From: an uncultured Bacteroidia bacterium | GTDB lineage: Bacteria; Bacteroidota; Bacteroidia; Bacteroidales; Prolixibacteraceae | Length of the DNA: 42,530 nt | Direction: 5' to 3' | Assembly: GCA_903923905.1 (NCBI GenBank) | Contig: CAIXZH010000067.1 | Location: forward strand, 1 to 42,530 | Shown: positions 5,059-15,705 of the stretch, piece by piece | How the letters are laid out: each line of letters opens with the position of its first letter | How positions within the stretch are numbered: the first letter of the stretch is position 1 | Notes under the pieces: generated by a model | The model's database searches: none | What the model was told of the DNA's origin: nothing | What the model saw: the letters and a program-made list of their open reading frames with translations, nothing else | Program-made: the position numbers and the translations under genes

Positions 5059-6297
5059 ATGAGAAATATCTATGCAGCCGTTCTTGTTACTGTTACTTTT
5101 TGTGCTGTGCTTTTGACCTCGTGTCATTCAGGATTTGTACCGTTGAAAGAGGGTTTATGGAGGGGAACCTTTCAATTGCCTGAACACGAAATCCCTTTTA
5201 TTTTTGAAGTCAGAGGCGAAAGCGCTGACAGCACAACCGTGCTCCTGATTAATGGAGAAGATCGTTTTAAGACAAATAAAGTCTGCTACAATAATGATTC
5301 GGTTTCAATCCCGATAGATCTTTACGATGTTGTATTAAAAGGAAAGCTCACTAAAAATACTTTTGAGGGGGATTTTATCAAAACAGCGGTTAACAGGGAA
5401 ATGACAAAGGTTCCATTCAAGGCAGAACATGGAAATCTCCCCCGTTTCCCGGCAAATAATGACCCACCATCTGCTTCTCTCGATGGAACATGGGATATAA
5501 ATATCATCGCGTCAGTAAATACCGAAAAAACGGTAGGGAATTTTATCCAAAAAGGATCTGTATTAACCGGATCAATCCTTGAAGAAACAGGCGATTACCG
5601 CTTCTTTGAGGGGGTTATTCACGGGAAAATATTTTCATTATCGGCTTTTGGCGGATCGACTCCCTACCTTGTTAAGGGAGAGTTTATGAGTGACACCACC
5701 TTCTCGGGTGAATTTGTCACCCTGCGCCAAACCTCCAAAATTAAAGGGAAACGCAATCCTAAAGCCAGTTTACCCTATCCCTATTCAGCCTCCCACCTTA
5801 AGGAAGGATTCACAACAGTCGGGTTTACATTCCCAAATCTCCAAGGGAAGCAGGTTTCGCTTTCTGATGCTAACTATAAAGGGAAAGTTGTAATCATCAC
5901 TATTTTGGGCAGCTGGTGCCCTAACTGCCTGGATGAGAATACGTTTTTATCCTCATGGTACAAGTGTAACCGTCAACGTGGAATAGAAATTGTAGGATTG
6001 GGGTTTGAAAGGAAAGACGATTTTGAATCGGCCAGAAAATCGTTGGCAAACTTCAAAACCCGCCTTGGCATCGATTATGAAATTCTTTTCGCCGGAAAAT
6101 CAAGTATAGAATCGGCCTCAAAAGCTTTGCCTGCTTTAAACGGAATCGCAGCTTTTCCAACCACTCTGTTTATTGACAGGAAAGGGAATGTCCGTAAAGT
6201 CCATACCGGTTTCAGTGGTCCTGCTACCGGGAAATTCTACGATGAATTTAAGAAGGAATTTAATAGATTGATTGATCAGCTGGTTTCTGAAAAATAG
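5059..6297 (+). CDS. TlpA-like thioredoxin-fold lipoprotein
   Basis: The 412-residue product has a lipoprotein signal peptide with lipobox LTSC (Cys22), so it is probably membrane anchored and faces the periplasm. Residues about 30-240 form a beta-rich region often found in Bacteroidota TlpA/ResA-type proteins (DUF4369-like, assigned by position only). The C-terminal thioredoxin domain contains WCPNC with Cys287 and Cys290, and a cis-Pro region AFPTTLFIDRKG. A reductase or disulfide-handling role in the periplasm is expected; the partner is not identifiable. A likely terminator follows at 6403-6425. Confidence 0.87.
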   Translation: MRNIYAAVLVTVTFCAVLLTSCHSGFVPLKEGLWRGTFQLPEHEIPFIFEVRGESADSTTVLLINGEDRFKTNKVCYNNDSVSIPIDLYDVVLKGKLTKNTFEGDFIKTAVNREMTKVPFKAEHGNLPRFPANNDPPSASLDGTWDINIIASVNTEKTVGNFIQKGSVLTGSILEETGDYRFFEGVIHGKIFSLSAFGGSTPYLVKGEFMSDTTFSGEFVTLRQTSKIKGKRNPKASLPYPYSASHLKEGFTTVGFTFPNLQGKQVSLSDANYKGKVVIITILGSWCPNCLDENTFLSSWYKCNRQRGIEIVGLGFERKDDFESARKSLANFKTRLGIDYEILFAGKSSIESASKALPALNGIAAFPTTLFIDRKGNVRKVHTGFSGPATGKFYDEFKKEFNRLIDQLVSEK

Positions 6298-6402
6298 TTT
6301 GTCTCCTATCCTAATCTCCTAAACAAGTTTGCACATTTTCCTGCAATTCTGATTCATACAATAAATTAAGATTAGCGGATCCAATTCCGTTAATTATTCA
6401 GG

Positions 6403-6425
6403 AAAGCCTTAACCAATAAGGCTTT
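6403..6425 (+). terminator. Hairpin terminator after the TlpA lipoprotein gene
   Basis: AAAGCCTTA (6403-6411) pairs with TAAGGCTTT (6417-6425) around a 5-base loop; the T-run is short (TTTT then AATAG). It lies about 100 bases after the stop codon. The rest of 6298-6530 shows no gene, only two short 5-bp hairpins near 6460 and 6496. Confidence 0.5.
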
Positions 6426-6563
6426 TAATAGATTTCACCAATTTTTCCAGGCCCCTGTAATACCTATTTATAGGGTGATGAATATCTTCAAAAATACCGG
6501 GAAACAGGTATGTTTTAATTCATAATTGGTTCAGATATTTGTCCCGGTTAATAAAAAATATCA

Positions 6564-6668
6564 ATGAATCCAATTTCAGCATTTCGTTCACTCCTGATCG
6601 CCGGAACCCAATCTTTGGTTTCCGGTTGCTGTTGTTGCAATGGTTTTTCGTGGCGAATGTGTTTCTAA
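6564..6668 (+). CDS. Candidate cysteine-codon leader peptide
   Basis: A 34-codon frame begins at ATG 6564 after an A-rich stretch (TTAATAAAAAATATCA), the usual start context in this phylum, and ends at TAA 6666. Codons 22-25 are TGC TGT TGT TGC, four cysteines in a row, and a fifth Cys is residue 33. A hairpin at 6601-6625 lies inside the frame directly before the Cys run. The next gene, 162 bases on, makes homocysteine from sulfide. Runs of codons for the end product before a biosynthetic gene are the mark of translation-coupled attenuators, so I infer a cysteine-sensing leader. A -7-like box (GATATTTG, 6534-6541, one mismatch) could start the transcript. No clear downstream terminator stem is visible, so the exact mechanism is open. 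Confidence 0.6.
   Translation: MNPISAFRSLLIAGTQSLVSGCCCCNGFSWRMCF
6601..6625 (+). promoter_or_regulatory. Hairpin inside the leader frame, before the Cys codons
   Basis: CCGGAA-CC (6601-6608) can pair with GG-T-TTCCGG (6617-6625) with one bulged T, an 8-bp stem. A ribosome paused at the cysteine codons (6627-6638) would cover it, so it could act as the switching element of an attenuator. Alternative pairing of CCCGG near 6543 with CCGGG near 6732 is also possible. Confidence 0.4.
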
Positions 6669-6818
6669 CACTTTGGTCACCACTTCCGCCAACATTAATT
6701 TCTGATCAGCGTCCCTCAGTATGATGCGGGTCCGGGAAGGGCAAATAATCTGAAAAATTCAAATCAAAAATCGTAATGCCTTAACAATCAACATATTTTT
6801 CGACTTTTTATAATTTAA

Positions 6819-8213
<1,395 letters not shown>

Positions 8214-11159: not shown

Positions 11160-11819
11160 ATGGAAAAGATAAATAAGGTAATTATAGCGGATTCCCAGTT
11201 CCTGGTAGTAGAAGCGTTGAAGTCACTGATTATGGCAGATCGTGACTATACAGTTACAGGAGTTGCGGCAACAAAACATGAACTCTTAAAGTTACTGGAC
11301 AGCGGCTCTGCAGAGCTGTTGATAACAGATTATGTGAATATTGATTATGATGGACTTGATGATCTGAGAATCATTCGGCTGAAATATCCCCAATTATCGA
11401 TACTGATTCTTACCAATACCATCAGCAAGCAGGAGTTTGCCGAACTGACAAAATCGGGCATTAAGAATATTATTTATAAGACTGCTGACAAGGACGAAAT
11501 CTTTTCTGCTATTGAATCAACGTTGAAATCGAGAAAATTTTATTCAGATGAAATTCTTGACCTTTTCCTCGATATAAGCGAATCAAAATATATTGCTGAA
11601 GACCCTAAAACATTGACTCCTTCTGAAATTGAAATTGTAAAACTAATCGCTGACGGATTGACAACCAAAGAGATTGCATCAAGGAGAAATATTAGTTACC
11701 ACACGGTAAATACTCACCGTAAGAATATTTTCAGAAAAGTGGAAGTCTCCAATGCTTCTGAATTAATTATGTTGGCGATCAAAGCGGGCTGGATAGATAA
11801 TATCGAATATTACATTTAA
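11160..11819 (+). CDS. NarL/FixJ-type response regulator
   Basis: The 219-residue protein has a receiver domain (about 6-125) with phosphoacceptor Asp57 in LLITDYVNID, Thr85 and Lys107, and a LuxR-type helix-turn-helix (about 153-212): LTPSEIEIVKLIADGLTTKEIA followed by RRNISYHTVNTHRKNIFRK. The first acidic pocket has a single Asp11 (IIADSQ) where two acidic residues are usual, which may weaken metal binding. It has no adjacent kinase, so it is an orphan regulator here, perhaps acting with a kinase encoded elsewhere. It likely binds DNA as a dimer. Confidence 0.92.
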   Translation: MEKINKVIIADSQFLVVEALKSLIMADRDYTVTGVAATKHELLKLLDSGSAELLITDYVNIDYDGLDDLRIIRLKYPQLSILILTNTISKQEFAELTKSGIKNIIYKTADKDEIFSAIESTLKSRKFYSDEILDLFLDISESKYIAEDPKTLTPSEIEIVKLIADGLTTKEIASRRNISYHTVNTHRKNIFRKVEVSNASELIMLAIKAGWIDNIEYYI

Positions 11820-14063: not shown

Positions 14064-14558
14064 TCATAATTTTCCAAGCATCCAGACATCACAGCCAAAA
14101 TGGCCGGTGTTTCCGAGTGGAGAAGGTAAATATTCAAATCCAAACTTTTCATAGAGCTTCAGTGCTTGATTAAGTTCAGGCATCGATTCCAGATATATTC
14201 TTTCAAAACCTAATTTTCCGGCAGCTTGCAGGCAGTGTTGCATTAATGATTTGCCAAAACCTTTGCCTCTGGCTTGCGGCACTAAATACATCTTTACCAA
14301 TTCACACGTATCTGAAGGCAACCCTTCAGTTGGGAAAATTCCACCGCCTCCTACGATTTCTCCATTATATTCAGCGACATAGTAACAAGAGCCCTCTTTC
14401 CTGAAAAGTTCATATAGTGCATCCGTCGATTGATCAAAATAAACGGTTCCCGGATGATCTGCACCAAATTCAGCCAGTGAAGAGCGGACAATTTTTGCCA
14501 ATATTTGATTATCTTTAGGTTGAATGGGACGTATTTGCAAAACTGAATCGTTTTTCAT
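14064..14558 (-). CDS. GNAT family N-acetyltransferase
   Basis: The 164-residue protein is a single GNAT domain: IRPIQPKDNQILAKI at the start, the beta4 segment CELVKMYLVPQARGKGFG with the acetyl-CoA pyrophosphate loop Q95-xxGxG at 95-102, and the C-terminal YEKFGFEYLP. It transfers acetyl from acetyl-CoA to an amine; the acceptor is unknown. It is divergent from cysK, and a CAAAGTTA box (reverse of TAACTTTG) at 14593-14600 could be its -7 element. Confidence 0.92.
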   Translation of the reverse strand: MKNDSVLQIRPIQPKDNQILAKIVRSSLAEFGADHPGTVYFDQSTDALYELFRKEGSCYYVAEYNGEIVGGGGIFPTEGLPSDTCELVKMYLVPQARGKGFGKSLMQHCLQAAGKLGFERIYLESMPELNQALKLYEKFGFEYLPSPLGNTGHFGCDVWMLGKL

Positions 14559-14685
14559 TTTTATGATGTCTATGTCGCAATATTAATGGATTCAAAGTTA
14601 AATTCCCAATTCCTGCAAAAATATAAACCCTGTCGAAACCAGCTATACCATAAAGCAGGTATTAAAAAATACGCATTTTATGGGA

Positions 14686-14739: not shown

Positions 14740-15705
14740 ATGACAAAAATTGCATCCAATCTTACCGATTTAATTGGGAATACTCCCTTACTTGAATTCT
14801 CGAACTTCAATAAGCAACATAAACTTGAAGCAACGATTATTGGAAAGCTCGAATTCTTTAATCCTGCCGGAAGTGTAAAAGACCGTATTGGTTTTGCGAT
14901 GATCGATGCTGCCGAAAAGCAGGGATTGCTGAATAAAGACTCTGTAATCATTGAACCTACCAGCGGTAACACAGGGATTGCTCTTGCATTTGTTGCAGCA
15001 GCCAAGGGATATCGGTTGATTATTTTATTACCCGAGACCTTCAGCCACGAAAGAAGGAATATATTGAAAGCCCTTGGCGCCGAATTAGTCCTCACCCCGG
15101 GAAGCGAAGGGATGAAAGGGGCAATACGAAGGGCAACAGAACTTGCTGCAGTTACTCCAAATTCTTTCCTTCCTCAACAGTTTAAAAACCTGGCAAACCC
15201 TGAAATTCACCGCAAAACTACTGCCGAGGAAATCTGGAGAGATACTGATGGTGATGTGGATATTTTTATTTCCGGTGTAGGTACAGGTGGAACCATAACC
15301 GGAGTAGGAGAAGTGCTGAAATCCAGAAAACCTGGTGTCCAAATTATCGCAGTTGAACCAACTGACTCCCCCGTTCTTTCAGGCGGAAATCCAGGACCTC
15401 ACAAGATTCAGGGTATTGGTGCCGGTTTTGTACCGGATATTCTAAACGTTTCTGTTATTGATGAAATTATCACGGTAACAAACGATCAGGCGATTCAAAC
15501 AAGCCGTGAATTAGCCAGAACTGAAGGACTCTTGGTTGGAATTTCCTCAGGCGCAATAGCTTATGCGGCATTACAGGTTGCTAAACGGCCTGAAAACAAG
15601 GGTAAAAAGATCGTTACCATTATGTGTGATACCGGTGAACGCTATCTGTCAACAGTGCTCTATCAGTTTGAAGACGAAAAAGCTACGACTGTGGCAGCAA
15701 ATTAA
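14740..15705 (+). CDS. cysK: Cysteine synthase A (O-acetylserine sulfhydrylase)
   Basis: The 321-residue PLP enzyme makes cysteine from O-acetylserine and sulfide. It shows the family signature with Schiff-base Lys47 ([11 protein letters not shown]), the substrate loop TSGNTG at 74-79, the PLP phosphate loop GTGGT, and ISSGAIAY and [11 protein letters not shown] at the C-terminal end. The start at 14740 is chosen because the promoter sits between the upstream in-frame start at 14680 and this ATG, and because [18 protein letters not shown] is where the family begins. It has no Cys-codon leader, in contrast to the O-acetylhomoserine enzyme 7 kb upstream. A strong hairpin terminator follows. Confidence 0.95.

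Follow-up and report, generated by a model that had tools for sequence, protein, structure and literature searches.

A cysteine-codon-rich upstream open reading frame before metY of a Prolixibacteraceae bacterium: a candidate attenuator with relatives before enzyme and outer-membrane genes

The metY leader in its genomic setting

The window, i.e., the whole stretch of 42,530 nucleotides that was analyzed, originates from an uncultured Bacteroidia bacterium of the family Prolixibacteraceae and contains a short upstream open reading frame (uORF) in front of metY (Table 1). The sequence bears out the initial annotation of this leader, which described a 34-codon frame with A-rich bases upstream of its ATG, Cys at codons 22-25 and a fifth Cys, encoded by TGT, at codon 33. 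It also placed a hairpin directly before the Cys run and a sulfide-assimilating enzyme downstream, and both are found: the predicted hairpin stops one base short of codon 22, and the downstream gene scores above the TIGR01326 cut-off. When positions 6298-6830 were dinucleotide-shuffled 20,000 times, an ATG-started uORF with a run of four Cys codons never occurred (0/20,000), while runs of three and two were counted 15 and 652 times, respectively. No riboswitch, the SAM class included, matches the region upstream of metY at Rfam gathering scores, as the annotation had stated for SAM riboswitches, and the single match at E values up to 1 is a snoRNA far below its gathering score.

Table 1. Positions of the metY leader, its predicted control elements and associated genes in the window.
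Feature	Position	Strand	Remark
Palindrome ATACC-N8-GGTAT, probable transcription-factor operator	6494..6511	.	same-spaced TACC-N8-GGTA before 18 of 18 leaders
GATATTTG, Bacteroidota-type -7 promoter box	6534..6541	+	NANNTTTG at the equal place in 18 of 18 leaders
Leader uORF, 34 codons	6564..6668	+	ATG at 6564, stop at 6666-6668; peptide MNPISAFRSLLIAGTQSLVSGCCCCNGFSWRMCF
CAGCA, predicted to pair with the first bases of the Cys run (6627-6631)	6577..6581	+	comparable predicted stems in related leaders
Predicted hairpin immediately 5' of the Cys run	6600..6626	+	from folding; related hairpin in relatives
Four Cys codons TGC TGT TGT TGC (codons 22-25), presumed stall site	6627..6638	+	
CGA ATG TGT (Arg-Met-Cys), shortened version of the CGAATGCGAATGTG end motif	6654..6662	+	
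metY, O-acetylhomoserine (thiol)-lyase, presumed regulated gene	6831..8213	+	TIGR01326, 698 bits against a cut-off of 495
LuxR-type response-regulator gene	11160..11819	+	60-76% identical to near-leader regulators in G008, G009, G012 and G061
Second palindrome	14645..14662	.	between cysteine synthase (14740-15705, +) and GNAT-type acetyltransferase (14064-14558, -) genes

Related leaders and the genes that follow them

In a sample of 140 genomes of the family, many of which are drafts with some contamination, a profile built from ten leaders detected 18 leaders in 11 genomes at E<=1e-4. The 18 leaders, of which ten are rows of the search profile and eight are new, come from two genera. Profile matches up to E 0.02 were present in 16 genomes, and three additional places that were translated (in G128, in G154 and a second place in G034) contain no leader. 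Both the frame and the Cys run recur when metY upstream regions and family genomes are compared, in line with the initial annotation; the run consists of at least three Cys codons in 15 of the 18 leaders and of two in the three leaders that precede cystathionine gamma-synthase (CGS)-type genes.

The genes after the 18 leaders are mostly involved in sulfur metabolism or located beside genes that are, and they include seven metY genes, three CGS-type genes, five genes for SusC-type TonB receptors, two porin genes and one LuxR-type regulator gene. Among the metY genes, those of the window, G003 and G061 are above the TIGR01326 cut-off, those of G012 and G017 are 89-91% identical to that of the window, and those of G073 and G070 were assigned from their N-termini. 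Cys_Met_Meta_PP is found in all three CGS-type genes, of which the one in G008 falls just below an NCBIfam cut-off, all five SusC-type receptors exceed the TIGR04056 cut-off, and Porin_O_P is found in both porin genes, with PBP-like and PstC-like genes following the porin gene of G034. In one cluster of G061 (L153), the order is LuxR-type regulator, leader, SusC, SusD, redoxin, 119-aa protein, leader, metY and porin, where the redoxin is 67% identical to the product of window gene 5059-6297 and the 119-aa protein has no Pfam match. The leader before the LuxR-type regulator gene (L156 of G012) ends with KMRM and lacks the final Cys, and the genes after the regulator resemble, by eye, an ATP-binding protein gene and a cysteine desulfurase gene.

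At the genus level, 21 metY matches were obtained from 17 of 18 genomes. Four of them are 89-91% identical to the metY of the window, and a Cys-run uORF is found directly upstream of three (G003, G012 and G017), the leader of G003 having surfaced first in the leader-peptide search and then in the positional check of the 21 genes. The metY of G013 (91%) lacks a leader and has its promoter layout in common with the leader-bearing genes, and directly upstream of it is a gene that by eye is a sulfite reductase-TusA-like fusion. No ATG-started Cys-run uORF was seen before 16 metY genes of 68-71% identity, including the second metY of the genome studied here; this check covered ATG starts only, among the frames listed, and it included two short upstream stretches as well as one locus (L048) that starts within the gene and is not judgeable.

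Among the leader-peptide matches, 31 loci were translated (L005 and L018 aside), and besides the leader of the window only those of G003 and G009 are leaders; none of the other matches within its own genome is a leader, and the plasmid collection yielded no match. With the leader profile, 393 genomes of the order gave 20 places besides the leader of the window, all weak, of which one passed the motif filter and contains no ATG-started leader, and 395 genomes of the class gave 15 weak places besides that leader, of which 14 were translated and none is convincing. As at most 19 candidates were scored per genome in these order and class searches, leaders may have been missed. Nine of the 18 leaders are also found in eight named sequences, including those of Mariniphaga sp. 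and Prolixibacteraceae bacterium.

Promoter layout, end motif and RNA structure

The -7 box of Bacteroidota promoters has the consensus TAnnTTTG. Before all 18 leaders, the first base of TACC-N8-GGTA is located exactly 39 nt upstream of the NANNTTTG box, a regularity that was noticed post hoc and among related loci. The 39-nt layout is kept in G003_c, although its uORF start is shifted downstream by about 85 nt relative to the other leaders. Among the loci examined, in which spacings of 38-40 were considered, three leaderless sites also have the 39-nt spacing: that of the G013 sulfite reductase fusion-metY operon and those of a 119-aa protein in G061 and in G073. From the promoter layout, transcription of the metY leader would start near 6547, i.e., upstream of the uORF, in line with the initial annotation. 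Of the six leaders from the second genus, five (L110, L111, L112, L113 and L121) have two palindromes upstream of the uORF, 23-24 bp apart.

The genome of the window contains 11 copies of the palindrome with its flanking A and T, compared with 3 of a control pattern. Two of the 11 are in the window, one before the metY leader and the other between the cysteine synthase and GNAT-type genes. Only the metY site has a box at 39; at 14645, the side facing the GNAT-type gene has the box at 38, and the remaining nine palindromes have no box at the corresponding place, so most of these nine may be chance occurrences. One of the nine (L142:2-1138) is upstream of a fragment resembling cysJ, which scores 424 bits against a cut-off of 668 and covers profile positions 95-470 of 597. 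In the window itself, TACC-N8-GGTA is found at three sites against 0.21 expected, the third of which (5520) is inside gene 5059-6297. The upstream region of the cysteine synthase gene carries the same palindrome as the metY leader, and when read by eye it reveals no Cys leader at the 14645 palindrome, in agreement with the annotation that this gene lacks one. The product of the LuxR-type response-regulator gene in the window is a candidate for binding the palindrome.

At or near the leader end, R-M-R-M-C is found in 14 of the 18 leaders; the exceptions are the leader of the window and G012_a, which possess only R-M-C, G008_b with R-M-R-I-C and G012_c with K-M-R-M. Arg is encoded by CGA at 31 of 35 positions after the Cys run vs. 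9 of 29 before it, so the CGAATGCGAATGTG end motif is constrained at the nucleotide level. Coding constraint is moderate, with a pN/pS of 0.62 pooled over ten pairs and of 0.55 when the misaligned pair G003_a/G017_a is removed.

Similar ends are also seen elsewhere. A uORF of Candidatus Symbiothrix dinenymphae (L139:6063-6131) with seven Cys codons ends with MRMRMCC and has 21 nt (CGAATGCGAATGTGCTGCTAA) in common with the leaders of G073 and G061, and by eye no evident sulfur gene is found immediately downstream of it. With up to two mismatches, this 21-base motif is matched in 2 of 395 genomes of the phylum, one of the matches being outside any leader. On the reverse strand of L174 (G775), at about 1500, another uORF ends with MRMRMCC, lacks a Cys run and precedes a gene that by eye is TonB-receptor-like; a search of 251 genomes of its family with the G775 peptide returned only itself and one borderline match.

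The region 6540-6830 as a whole is of ordinary stability (z of -0.98, with 34 of 200 shuffles equally stable). From the start codon to the Cys run, the uORFs are more stable than their synonymous recodings, with a pooled z of -5.9 and a mean of -1.4 over the 18 leaders, nine of which are individually significant at 5%; because the leaders are kin by descent, the pooled z-scores overstate independence. Most of the excess stability comes from the metY and CGS-type leaders; it is almost absent from the five SusC leaders and differs between the two porin leaders. The hairpin before the Cys run is likewise found mainly in metY and CGS-type leaders. Over the 48 nt that surround the hairpin, pooling gives a z of -4.3 relative to synonymous recodings but only -2.3 relative to dinucleotide shuffles, and covariation is slight, with both-sided changes in 1 of 25 and 2 of 11 pairs. 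A commonly predicted fold pairs the first codons with the Cys run, the resulting stem enclosing the hairpin. Downstream of the uORF in L060, L119, L063, L059 and L061, a small hairpin followed by a GAUGUCAGG-like sequence is found before metY and CGS-type genes alike.

A candidate cysteine-sensing attenuator and its alternatives

The frame, the Cys run, their recurrence, the shared promoter layout and the excess uORF structure in the metY and CGS-type groups are observed. Based on these features, we consider it likely that the uORF serves as the Cys-tRNA sensor of a ribosome-mediated attenuator before metY. Transcription would begin at the promoter near 6547, with a regulator site at about -42, and ribosomes would translate the 34-codon leader. 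When Cys-tRNA is plentiful, ribosomes would get to the stop codon and metY expression would be kept low; when Cys-tRNA is scarce, they would stall at codons 22-25 and melt the stem between the uORF start and the Cys run together with the hairpin before the run, and the altered RNA or ribosome position would then allow metY expression. Translation, stalling, the response to cysteine and the direction of control are what we infer from this arrangement.

How the signal would be passed on bears on the first alternative, classical attenuation, in which stalling at the Cys codons leads to an antiterminator, an intrinsic terminator forms otherwise and read-through reaches metY. The layout of uORF, residue run and hairpin fits this scheme, and by eye a CACAUC downstream of the CGS-type leaders has two possible alternative pairing partners, AUGUG in the terminal part of the uORF and a GAUGU farther on. 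Against it, no intrinsic terminator is found in 6290-6860, and a second scan for a hairpin with a U tract found none in 16 of the 18 leaders and weak candidates in two. A hairpin between the uORF end and the RNA after the stop codon is convincing to the eye in several leaders; its pooled z over the 18 is -0.3 compared with downstream shuffles, so it was rejected as a general feature, a result that also speaks against classical attenuation, which we regard as unlikely. With no intrinsic terminator in evidence, the output would probably be by Rho-type termination or at the level of translation. Downstream of the stop codon, C exceeds G as expected for Rho, but the difference is modest (0.051 vs. 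about 0), the C excess of the metY leader is equalled by 13 of 65 partly overlapping controls, and a plain Rho site was set aside on this account.

A different possibility is that the peptide itself acts, by arrest or as a thiol- or metal-sensing nascent chain in which the Cys run and R-M-R-M-C matter as amino acids; a copper-sensing nascent protein is reportedly known. The occurrence of R-M-R-M-C in most leaders would fit, as would the lone uORF of G775 before a TonB-receptor-like gene, although the latter is without a Cys run. The preference for CGA after the Cys run is unexplained by peptide constraint alone, however, and the linked genes indicate sulfur and none of them metals, which makes this explanation quite improbable. 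It is more improbable still that a palindrome-binding regulator is the only control and the uORF a passenger or a small protein. The three leaderless sites with a box at 39, among them the G013 sulfite reductase-metY operon, fit such an explanation, but the Cys run and the frame are kept before five kinds of genes in two genera despite diverged intergenic sequence.

In attenuators of the trp/his type, a biosynthetic gene is preceded by a short uORF that contains a residue run; compared with these, the metY leader set has no terminator that we could find, includes transport genes and shares an upstream palindrome. Polycysteine uORFs of mycobacteria, described as leaderless, were reportedly tested by experiment by Canestrari et al. 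in 2020. Predictions of Cys-run uORFs exist for the cys operons of Mycobacterium and Propionibacterium acnes and for cbs of Bifidobacterium longum, in each case upstream (PMC1262725); those of mycobacteria have no conserved terminator, Rho was proposed for them in 2005 (PMC1262725), and a citing paper ascribes translation attenuation to them (PMC13236596). The mycobacterial uORFs resemble the leaders described here in that they are short, contain consecutive Cys codons, precede cysteine genes and come without a conserved terminator, and differ in that they are actinobacterial and leaderless and have the Cys run near the stop codon; the available text of these reports mentions neither an R-M-R-M-C end nor TonB receptors. 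The uORFC-8-2 motif of Rhodobacterales, a tandem-Cys uORF before cysS at which stalling is proposed to permit read-through (PMC8632094), is similar in its tandem Cys codons and structured leader, whereas as far as its description available to us goes it is alphaproteobacterial, is found before cysS only, and has two Cys codons and a U run consistent with a terminator.

Within the phylum, regions upstream of amino-acid operons in Flavobacterium psychrophilum have been reported to hold clues to leader-peptide attenuation (PMC9723704), and Bacteroides thetaiotaomicron has sORFs that recall leader peptides (PMC7366714). The same general mechanism is proposed there; the main text of these reports names no Cys leader, and their supplementary lists could contain one. 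Our literature search, limited to main texts, found no Cys leader in Bacteroidota, and in the accessible parts of the literature found, amino-acid attenuators of this phylum receive only passing mention. Judged from its sequences, the metY leader set probably follows the known Cys-attenuator principle, from whose other examples it is set apart by its end motif and by the broader range of genes, and it looks like a Bacteroidota variant of the Cys-codon attenuator that extends to outer-membrane uptake.

The initial annotation had combined attenuation with control of the homocysteine branch alone. The former agrees with a recurrent, Cys-codon-rich leader with a hairpin; the latter is not supported, because similar leaders precede SusC-type receptor, porin and regulator genes. 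Given the leaders before SusC-type uptake genes, the device would govern sulfur supply more widely. Tentatively, we propose as a possibility a two-layer sulfur regulon of Bacteroidota, in which a LuxR-type regulator at TACC-N8-GGTA may switch promoters on and most transcripts may then pass through a Cys-sensing uORF. Its CGAATGCGAATGTG end might be an undescribed kind of nucleic-acid element, placed before enzymes and SusC/SusD alike and also outside the family, as the same 21 nt in Candidatus Symbiothrix may indicate. The near-invariant CGAATGCGAATGTG end with its fixed Arg codons offers a concrete target for mutation. If the proposal is true, a Cys leader common to sulfur-assimilation enzymes and SusC/SusD would couple outer-membrane transport directly to tRNA charging, and it would hint that the cargo of the leader-linked SusC/SusD transporters is a sulfur source.
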